Under the pieces are notes generated by a model. That model worked only from the letters and a program-made list of their open reading frames with translations. It was not told where the DNA came from and did no database searches. From the NCBI GenBank assembly GCA_007694005.1, contig RECN01000059.1, forward strand, positions 1 through 64,000: DNA of 64,000 nucleotides. Direction: 5' to 3'. The translations under genes were made by a program, and so were the position numbers. This document shows, piece after piece, positions 38,364 through 42,005 of this stretch (position 1 is its first letter; each line of letters starts with the position of its first letter). The stretch is from Spirochaetaceae bacterium. GTDB lineage: Bacteria > Spirochaetota > Spirochaetia > DSM-27196 > SKKC01.

Positions 38364-39092
38364 TTACAGATTCCCATCGCTGAGGATGATCACATCCACC
38401 CGACGGTTATAGGCCCTGCCCTCTGCCGTATCGTTTGCGAACAGCGGCTGCTGTTCCCCAAGCGACATGACCTGGAAGCGACTTTCAGGCGCTCCAAAAT
38501 CGACAAGATACCGCAGCACATTCAGCGACCGATCCGCGCCAAGATGCCAGTTATTCGGCCATGGCCCCTGGGGATCGGTGGGTTCGCTGTCCGTATGACC
38601 CTCAATGCGAAACGACCGCCCCGCGACCGTTTCACTCTGGAGCAGATCGGACAGATTCTGCAGTACAACCCGCGAACGCTCAATATCGATTTCCGCGCTC
38701 GCCGTACGAAAGAACGAATCCGCAGCGAGCGAGATTACAAGTCCCCGCTCGTCCCGGGTAACTCTGACCCTGTTCGAGCGTATTTCCGGTTCGAACAGAC
38801 TGATTGCCTGTCTGCGAGCCTCGTCGAGGGACCGACCGACACGTCGCGACGGAAGCTGCAGAATGTTGTTGCCGAGCTCGGCGAGCGGCCCCACCTCCAG
38901 GGTGTTACCACCCTGAAACGTCCCGAGCCCGGGAAACGCTGCGAGCACGAGCCGAAGCTCATACCCGTCAATCTCTGCCGTCGTAAACAGAAGTACGAAA
39001 AACGTGAGCAGAAGCGTCGTCATGTCTCCGTAGGTCAGCAGCCAGTCGGCTGCACCTTCGGATTTCCGTTCTTTTTTCTTTACACCTGCCAT
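38364..39092 (-). CDS. motB: Stator protein MotB
   Basis: WLLTYGDMTTLLLTFFVLLF with the conserved Asp; OmpA-like FRIEGHTDSEPT. Confidence 0.96.
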   Translation of the reverse strand: MAGVKKKERKSEGAADWLLTYGDMTTLLLTFFVLLFTTAEIDGYELRLVLAAFPGLGTFQGGNTLEVGPLAELGNNILQLPSRRVGRSLDEARRQAISLFEPEIRSNRVRVTRDERGLVISLAADSFFRTASAEIDIERSRVVLQNLSDLLQSETVAGRSFRIEGHTDSEPTDPQGPWPNNWHLGADRSLNVLRYLVDFGAPESRFQVMSLGEQQPLFANDTAEGRAYNRRVDVIILSDGNL

Positions 39093-39110: not shown

Positions 39111-39896
39111 TTAGTCACGTACACTCTCCTGACGTATCGCCTCACGCTGCTTTGGCGGCAGGAAGCTGACAAGTTTCTCAAGGAGAATGCGCGGGTTGTC
39201 GCCGCTCTGTATGCTTAATATACCTTCAACCACGATTTCTTTCACGCGGGTCTCATCGCGGTTTCGATCTTCGAGTTTGTTCTTCAGAGGCACGAGGATG
39301 AGGTTTGCAAAAATAGAGCCGTACATTGTCGTGATGAGCGCGAGTGACATACCTGATCCAATGGCGTCCGGGTCGTCCCCGAGCGCCTGAAGCATGGCGA
39401 TGAGACCCGCGAGCGTCCCGATCATTCCGAAAGCCGGAGCGATCTTGCCCCAGTCATCGAAGAGCTTGATTCCGGTATCATGACGCTCCTGCAACTGATT
39501 CAGGTCGTTATAGAGAATACTCTTGATGATGTCGGGGTCGGTGCCGTCTACGACCAGCTGTATGCCCTTGCGCATGAACTCATCTTCCACTTCATCAAGG
39601 TTGTCCTCGAGCGCGAGAAGACCTTCCCTGCGCGCGCGTTCGGAAAACGCCACCAGATCGGAGATGATTTTTTCTTCCTTGAGGTCGGGCGTACGAATCG
39701 TCAGGTTCACGTATCGCATGACACCGAGCATGCGGCTCAGCGGATTTGATACGAGCATCGCCGCGAAGCTTCCACCAATAACCATTATGAACGACGCCAG
39801 GTCGATATACGCCCCGAGGAAGCCTCCACTCGTGAGAATGGACATGAGGATAAGGAGGAAACCGGAAATTATGCCAATTATCGTGCCGAGATCCAT
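39111..39896 (-). CDS. motA: Stator protein MotA
   Basis: MotA/TolQ/ExbB-like: PAFGMIGTLAGLIAMLQALGDDPDAIGSGMSLALITTMYGSIFANLI. Confidence 0.96.
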   Translation of the reverse strand: MDLGTIIGIISGFLLILMSILTSGGFLGAYIDLASFIMVIGGSFAAMLVSNPLSRMLGVMRYVNLTIRTPDLKEEKIISDLVAFSERARREGLLALEDNLDEVEDEFMRKGIQLVVDGTDPDIIKSILYNDLNQLQERHDTGIKLFDDWGKIAPAFGMIGTLAGLIAMLQALGDDPDAIGSGMSLALITTMYGSIFANLILVPLKNKLEDRNRDETRVKEIVVEGILSIQSGDNPRILLEKLVSFLPPKQREAIRQESVRD

Positions 39897-39905
39897 ACCG
39901 TCTTC

Positions 39906-40103
39906 CTACTCCTCGTTCTTGAAGCCGCCGATTCGGCGTCTGTACTCGACGATGCTGTCCGTGATCTGTTCCACGCCTTCTTTTACAATGAGCCGCTTTC
40001 CGGACAGCATTACCAGTGTCGTGTCCGGATTCGTCTCAATGTACTCGATCTGATGGGGATTCACAAAATACTTCCTGTCATCAAGGCGTGTCACACTGAT
40101 CAT
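39906..40103 (-). CDS. flbD: FlbD family protein
   Basis: MISVTRLDDRKYFVNPHQIEYIETNPDTTLVMLSGKRLIVKE. Confidence 0.93.
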   Translation of the reverse strand: MISVTRLDDRKYFVNPHQIEYIETNPDTTLVMLSGKRLIVKEGVEQITDSIVEYRRRIGGFKNEE

Positions 40104-40126: not shown

Positions 40127-41542
40127 TTACTGCTTCAGTGTTAATACTTCCTGCAGCATCTGATCCGCCGTCCTGATGGTACGACTGTTCGCCTGGAAAC
40201 CTCGCTGAGTCACGATCATATCGGTAAAGGCCTCCGAGAGGTCAACGTTACTCATTTCAAGCGCACCTGATACGATCATGCCCCGCCCCGCCGAACCGGC
40301 CGGTGCAAGGTCCGCCTGACCGCTGTTGATCGTTCGTGCGAAATTTGTGTCACCGACCCGTTCAAGACCGCCGGGGTTGGTGAAACTCGCGAGGGCAATC
40401 TGCCCAAGCGCACGGTTGGTTCCGTTCGAGAAGATACCGGTCACGGTACCGGACTGGTCAATACGAAAGTCTTCAAGATAGCCCATGCCATACCCGTTCT
40501 GCTCGAAAATCCGAAGGCTGCTTGCCGAACTGAACTGAGTCATGGCGTTTGTGAACGAACCTGCCTCACCGAGATTAAGCGTAAAGGTCTGGGTCTGAAC
40601 GCCGTCAACTTCCGGCAGTCCGGTATCAGGGTCGATGGGTATCGCGCTTTCGGGAACCTCGAATGTCATCCCGACCGTCAGTTCCCCGTCGGTGTCTTCG
40701 CCGCCTTCATCGTTGAAGACGCGTCGCAGCGTCCCGTCATTAGCAAACTCTACGAAAAATCGTTCGGTATCCGCACTGTCAACACCGGCAACCGAGAGAT
40801 TCTGAAGCGGCTGTTCGTCTCCACCGGGATTCATGACAACGGCGACCTGCCACTGATTCGGCTGGCCGGGAACACGGGTAAAATCCAGTCTCAGTTCGTG
40901 CGTCGTTCCAAAGCTGTCATAAATTTCCTGCGTGACACTCCATGTACCTTCGGCAGTTTCCGAAGCGGTTGCATTCTCGGGAATCAGCGGAGTATTACGG
41001 TTCAGGTTCGAGGCGAACCTCACCTCGGTCGTTTCCTGTGCGCCGTCTTTCCCCCCTATGGGTATGTTCAGCTCACCCGGATTGCCGGTCGTGTTGATCA
41101 TGGTAGTCCCGTCAATATCCTCAGCTGCCCAGCCGAGGACACGCATGCCGTTGCCCGGATTGACCAGGGTTCCGTTCGCATCGAGACCAAAGGCACCGGC
41201 CCTCGTGTAAAGGTTCCGGTCGCCGTCGGAAAGCACGAAGAACCCGTCGCCCTGTATGGCTAGATCGTCCCGCTTACCCGTCGTCTGCAGACTGCCCTGC
41301 AGGTGCAACGTATCAATCGATGCAACGTTCATTCCGAGACCGACCTGCTGGGGGTTCACACCACCACGCTCGATTCCGGGTCGAGCAGCACCGCGCATAT
41401 TCTGCGAGATGAGATCCTGAAAATTCACGCGTCCACGCCGGTAACCGGTTGTATTGACGTTGGAAATGTTGTTACCGATGACATCCATACGAACCTGGTG
41501 GTTCTGCAAACCGCTGACACCGGAATACAATGATCGCATCAT
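40127..41542 (-). CDS. flgE: Flagellar hook protein FlgE (lacks Cys entirely)
   Basis: MMRSLYSGVSGLQNHQVRMDVIGNNISNVNTTGYRRGRVNFQD; C-terminal TDMIVTQRGFQANSRTIRTADQMLQEVLTLKQ. Confidence 0.97.
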   Translation of the reverse strand: MMRSLYSGVSGLQNHQVRMDVIGNNISNVNTTGYRRGRVNFQDLISQNMRGAARPGIERGGVNPQQVGLGMNVASIDTLHLQGSLQTTGKRDDLAIQGDGFFVLSDGDRNLYTRAGAFGLDANGTLVNPGNGMRVLGWAAEDIDGTTMINTTGNPGELNIPIGGKDGAQETTEVRFASNLNRNTPLIPENATASETAEGTWSVTQEIYDSFGTTHELRLDFTRVPGQPNQWQVAVVMNPGGDEQPLQNLSVAGVDSADTERFFVEFANDGTLRRVFNDEGGEDTDGELTVGMTFEVPESAIPIDPDTGLPEVDGVQTQTFTLNLGEAGSFTNAMTQFSSASSLRIFEQNGYGMGYLEDFRIDQSGTVTGIFSNGTNRALGQIALASFTNPGGLERVGDTNFARTINSGQADLAPAGSAGRGMIVSGALEMSNVDLSEAFTDMIVTQRGFQANSRTIRTADQMLQEVLTLKQ

Positions 41543-41549
41543 AGTCTTG

Positions 41550-42005
41550 CTACTCCTTTACCCGAATAACGTCGTTGTAGTCGAAATACTGTCCATCCAC
41601 GAGAACCTGGGGATCGTTTCCTCTGGTTACTTCGGTGACTCTGCCTTCGAGGACCCGATCTCCCGCTGAAACTTCAACGGTGCGCCCGATCAGTCCCACC
41701 GCCTGACTTCCTGAGAGAAGCCCCGACAGACGACGAAACTCTTCGGACATGTTTGTGATCTGCTCGAGTGATGAAAACTGCGCCATCTGCGCGATAAACT
41801 CCCGGTCATCCATAGGCTCGGTCGGATCCTGATTCTGGAGCTGTGTAATAAGGATGCGCAGGAAATCGTCCCGACCCAGCTCGGTTCTGCTGCCTTCGCC
41901 TGACGAAAGACGCTGGTTCACCTGATCAACCTGCTGGGCAGTTCGTGCCCGTTCGGTCGAACTCATTTGTGTAGATACATTGTTTAGCGCCGAAGCGATA
42001 TCCAT
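41550..42005 (-). CDS. flgD: Hook cap scaffold FlgD
   Basis: LGRDDFLRILITQLQNQDPTEPMDDREFIAQMAQFSSLEQ. Confidence 0.95.
   Translation of the reverse strand: MDIASALNNVSTQMSSTERARTAQQVDQVNQRLSSGEGSRTELGRDDFLRILITQLQNQDPTEPMDDREFIAQMAQFSSLEQITNMSEEFRRLSGLLSGSQAVGLIGRTVEVSAGDRVLEGRVTEVTRGNDPQVLVDGQYFDYNDVIRVKE

Follow-up and report, generated by a model that had tools for sequence, protein, structure and literature searches.

Serine at the position of the crosslinking cysteine in the flagellar hook protein of a Spirochaetaceae bacterium, and the distribution of the two residues among spirochaetes

The closest described systems are the spirochaete hooks in which FlgE subunits are joined by lysinoalanine. 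In Treponema denticola the bond connects Cys178 and Lys165 (PDB 6NDW, 6NDT, 6NDX). The C178, K165 and N179 mutants of this organism lose both the bond and motility, and the C178A mutant of Borreliella assembles flagella that look normal, yet is nonmotile (PMC10691653). Lys336 is one of five residues that the published alignment highlights, Thr334 is marked there as well, and PDB entry 6NDV is the D2 structure of the K336A variant.

A conserved cysteine has been described as the state outside Leptospira (PMC10691653). In Leptospira FlgE, serine replaces the cysteine and lysinoalanine is still made, both in vitro and in purified flagella (PMC10691653, PNAS Nexus 2023), with Ser179 using Lys166, Lys145 and Lys148 as partners (PMC10691653). 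The C178S variant of T. denticola also makes lysinoalanine in vitro (PMC10691653), so the presence of Ser at residue 178 does not imply that the crosslink is missing. Both Ser-type reactions are slower, and that of Leptospira needed pH 10-11 in vitro; both recombinant proteins crosslink without added factors, and the Leptospira authors suggest that unknown cellular factors may offset the low reactivity of Ser (PMC10691653). Brevinema andersonii, which belongs to a different order from the organism considered here, likewise combines Ser178 with Lys165 in its FlgE sequence (PMC10691653).

The DNA analysed here, referred to as the window, is a stretch of 64,000 nucleotides from a Spirochaetaceae bacterium (contig RECN01000059.1, assembly GCA_007694005.1). 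Its flgE gene occupies 40127-41542 on the minus strand, and the translated protein of 471 aa scores 552.5 bits against the NCBIfam profile NF004241 (cut-off 469), which identifies it as the flagellar hook protein. The surrounding genes, assigned by their order and sequence similarity, are also on the minus strand: a flgD-like (hook cap) gene lies upstream (41550-42005), and a small flbD-like gene (39906-40103), a motA-like gene (39111-39896) and a motB-like gene (38364-39092) lie downstream.

A first-pass annotation of the window had claimed that this FlgE contains no Cys, that Ser occupies the site of the lysinoalanine-forming Cys of T. denticola, and that a Lys is kept 13 residues before it, all of which is borne out by our analysis. 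Alignment with the 6NDX sequence is ungapped over residues 92-193, so that residues 165, 178 and 179 are numbered alike in the two proteins. The codons, all on the minus strand, are AAA for Lys165 (41048-41050), the predicted lysinoalanine acceptor; TCG for Ser178 (41009-41011), the predicted dehydroalanine precursor; and AAC for Asn179 (41006-41008). With Ser178 and Cys nowhere in the protein, the window FlgE falls outside the Cys type represented by T. denticola and Borreliella. It also differs from T. denticola at two further positions, having Leu for Thr335 and Arg344 (40511-40513, minus strand) for Lys336, whereas Ser342 (40517-40519, minus strand) retains the Ser/Thr character of Thr334.

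The possibility that a second, Cys-bearing FlgE is encoded elsewhere had also been raised. A search of the genome, a draft assembly of 204 contigs, returned the window FlgE as the sole FlgE; the remaining matches are partial (E 2.8e-28 to 5.3e-5) and belong to shorter rod/hook-type proteins. A sequencing error at codon 41009-41011 is unlikely, because 32 of the 33 FlgE sequences from the order of the window organism carry Ser178 and TCG is two changes away from either Cys codon. The observation itself is real, and Ser at residue 178 is a recognised alternative, not an anomaly.

The predicted structure is in line with this assignment. Modelling with 12 close sequences gave a poor result (pLDDT 45), and the model from 68 sequences reached a mean pLDDT of 81.8, with values >90 in most blocks of residues 91-430. 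It matches the Salmonella hooks and the crosslinked T. denticola dimer 6NDX, both D1 and D2 showing the FlgE fold, and its D2 domain superimposes on the T. denticola D2 structure captured as the dehydroalanine intermediate (6NDT), with an rmsd of 2.0 A and a TM score of 0.92 by target length. In the model, Ser178 and Lys165 are predicted to be placed within a single subunit as they are in the known crosslinking hook.

As the first-pass annotation had proposed, FlgE was aligned across Spirochaetota and the Cys/Ser switch was mapped on a tree. Sequences were collected from whole genomes throughout the phylum, at least one from most genera with listed coordinates, together with named genome records. 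The first set comprised 186 FlgE representing about 60 families; all of them have Lys165 and Asn179, with Cys at residue 178 in 100 and Ser in 86. The full set, including the named records, holds 236 distinct spirochaete FlgE; Lys165 and Asn179 are each present in 236/236, and residue 178 is Cys in 143, Ser in 93 and nothing else. The 23 non-spirochaete FlgE compared, mostly from Firmicutes, have Gly, Lys, Asn or Tyr at residue 178, and Lys165 occurs in 2/23. Since Cys or Ser is found at residue 178 in 236/236 spirochaete and 0/23 non-spirochaete sequences, the restriction is not due to chance, and Lys165 together with Cys/Ser178 are features of spirochaetes. Asn179, whose retention the annotation had pointed out, is indeed present after Ser178; as a sign of crosslinking it has, unlike Lys165, to be rejected, for it is found in 23/23 of the non-spirochaete proteins too and is a general FlgE residue. 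One genome encodes two full-length FlgE copies, both of the Ser type. In one family, and in one genus of another, every listed genome is devoid of an FlgE match; these are perhaps non-motile lineages.

The two residues have been exchanged many times. On single-gene FlgE trees built with column 178 left out, at least 9 Cys/Ser changes are needed for 186 sequences and at least 10 or 11, depending on the method, for 233 sequences, and across these at least about 10-11 switches no third residue appears at the site. The ancestor of the window's order is reconstructed as Ser (0.99) and that of its class as Cys (0.985 or more), suggesting that Ser in this order stems from one Cys-to-Ser change; the single Cys-type FlgE of the order has, by the same reconstruction, reverted to Cys. 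Leptospira interrogans, a member of a different class, acquired Ser by a separate Cys-to-Ser change on the tree. The root of the phylum is reconstructed as Cys, a result contingent on a distant outgroup and a single-gene tree. Ser178 is also seen in three Treponema metagenome genomes, although the other treponemes are of the Cys type, which implies that these switched recently.

Two further ideas about this history did not hold up. Both Ser codon sets, TCN and AGY, occur at residue 178, which could be taken as a sign of hidden passage through Cys. The codon sets are uninformative, because conserved Ser columns without Cys change sets about as often (11 changes in 86 at column 178, 18 in 180 at column 431 and 9 in 185 at column 407). 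High pH was likewise considered as the reason for Ser in the window's order, as the sample names of some named relatives belong to what we take to be a soda-lake series. This explanation is weakened by Salinispira pacifica, a member of the same order whose FlgE has Ser178; its published description reports a motile organism that has two periplasmic flagella and grows best near pH 7, so that the Ser type does not depend on an alkaline habitat.

The equivalent of Lys336 varies with the residue at 178. Wherever a sequence aligns at position 342 (Thr334 in T. denticola), the residue is Ser or Thr. At position 344, Lys is present in 140/141 aligned Cys-type FlgE vs 66/93 of the Ser type; it is missing from 27/93 Ser-type proteins, the window FlgE with its Arg344 among them, the position being relaxed in this type. 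On the tree, Lys344 was lost 8 times in Ser lineages (branch length 12.4), with one loss in Cys lineages (22.2) and two on branches leading from Cys to Ser, a skew toward Ser lineages with a one-sided P of about 0.001. General drift from Lys to Arg does not explain it, because other lysine columns change to Arg at much the same rate in both backgrounds (0.28 and 0.32 per unit). Two FastTree runs, one of them with columns 342-344 taken out, repeat the skew (P 0.0016 and 0.0011). In an unguided scan of conserved columns, only one was more skewed than position 344, whose P was 0.017 before correction for many columns, and we therefore regard the association between Lys336 and the Cys type as a supported lead, at a site already flagged in the literature, and not as proof. 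A column-by-column test of coevolution with independent pairs had 7 supported pairs only, none of them significant.

The window FlgE is also exceptional in its lysine content. It has three lysines, Lys90 (41273-41275), Lys165 and the conserved C-terminal residue Lys470 (40133-40135; both codons on the minus strand), the lowest count among the 186 surveyed, along with 28 Arg. Arg is found at positions 35, 182, 344, 395 and 420, where Lys predominates elsewhere; position 35 is Lys in 185/186 of the surveyed spirochaete FlgE. Lys165 has been retained. The FlgE of L. interrogans has the equivalent Lys and Ser, likewise with a spacing of 13 and a site without Cys, but it uses Lys145 and Lys148 in addition, whereas Lys165 is the only lysine of the window protein between residues 91 and 469, so that the alternative bonds of the Leptospira type are unavailable.

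We consider that the hook encoded in the window is probably a Ser-type, lysinoalanine-forming spirochaete hook with a single crosslink between Ser178 and Lys165. Our analysis shows which residues are present, how strictly they are restricted and what fold they belong to, and the chemistry would follow from the homologous cases of Leptospira Ser179 and T. denticola C178S. Within the assembled hook, the D2-domain Ser178 of one subunit would dehydrate to dehydroalanine, Lys165 at the D1-D2 boundary of a neighbouring subunit would add to it, and the resulting covalent bond would chain the subunits together. A single crosslink isoform is predicted, in contrast to the three reactive lysines of Leptospira, because the protein has no lysines besides Lys165, Lys90 and Lys470. 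This reading also draws support from the match of D2 to 6NDT, from the constancy of Ser or Thr at the Thr334 equivalent and from S. pacifica, a motile member of the order with Ser178. The points against this reading are the slowness of the Ser-type reaction, with the pH 10-11 used for Leptospira, the Arg at the Lys336 equivalent, and the conservation of Lys165, which could partly reflect a role at the interface that is independent of crosslinking.

The first-pass annotation had left three options for this hook, namely absence of the crosslink, dehydroalanine made from Ser by a different route, or stabilisation in another way. It is unlikely that the hook does without the crosslink, Ser178 being merely tolerated and non-covalent contacts being sufficient. 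The slow chemistry in vitro and the replacement of Lys336 by Arg would fit such a hook, and a literature search found no crosslink measurement for the window organism or any member of its order. Mere tolerance, however, should also give Ala, Gly or Thr, none of which is seen in 93 Ser-type proteins or through about 10-11 switches; the strict choice of Cys or Ser and the invariance of Lys165, even in the Lys-poor window FlgE, oppose loss of the bond, and the Ser-type hooks of Leptospira are crosslinked in vivo (PMC10691653). The option of dehydroalanine is favoured; it has already been published for Leptospira, in vitro and in vivo, and for T. denticola C178S in vitro.

It is quite improbable, in our estimation, that the crosslink forms only after another enzyme has activated Ser178, for example by phosphorylation as in lanthipeptide-type dehydration. 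The cellular factors suggested by the Leptospira authors would leave room for such a step, but both Leptospira FlgE and T. denticola C178S crosslink as recombinant proteins with nothing added. Of the annotation's "different route", the origin from Ser stands and a separate route is not required, as recombinant Leptospira FlgE reacts without other proteins, albeit at pH 10-11 in vitro. That Lys165 and a small polar residue 178 are kept for non-covalent packing of the D1-D2 interface, with crosslinking incidental, is very improbable: both residues do lie at the subunit contact in the solved dimer 6NDX, but the compared non-spirochaete hooks lack Cys/Ser178 and mostly Lys165, and the phenotypes of Borreliella C178A and the T. 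denticola C178, K165 and N179 mutants (PMC10691653) indicate that the bond itself is what matters.

Beyond the Ser178-Lys165 crosslink proposed for the window hook, the data invite a broader and more tentative reading. It is conceivable, and to us nearly as plausible as its opposite, that the self-made crosslink of spirochaete hooks exists in a Cys and a Ser version that can stand in for each other, have replaced one another at least about ten times and rely on partly different catalytic residues, with Lys336 needed for a sulfur leaving group and dispensable for oxygen.

Two results appear to be new, namely how widespread and recurrent the Ser type is, and that Lys336 is associated with the Cys type; a limited search of papers found no prior report for the window's order. 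In the published view, Ser is a peculiarity of Leptospira, with Brevinema noted, and Cys is the rule elsewhere. Our survey finds Ser178 over a large part of the phylum; its bearers include an entire order of free-living spirochaetes as well as some metagenome genomes of Treponema. That Lys336 is linked to Cys is a specific, testable clue to how the bond is made, and the three-lysine FlgE of the window is a convenient protein in which to test for a single crosslink isoform. Because Cys and Ser replace each other repeatedly and no third residue takes their place, this switching is strong natural evidence that selection keeps the dehydroalanine-forming residue itself.
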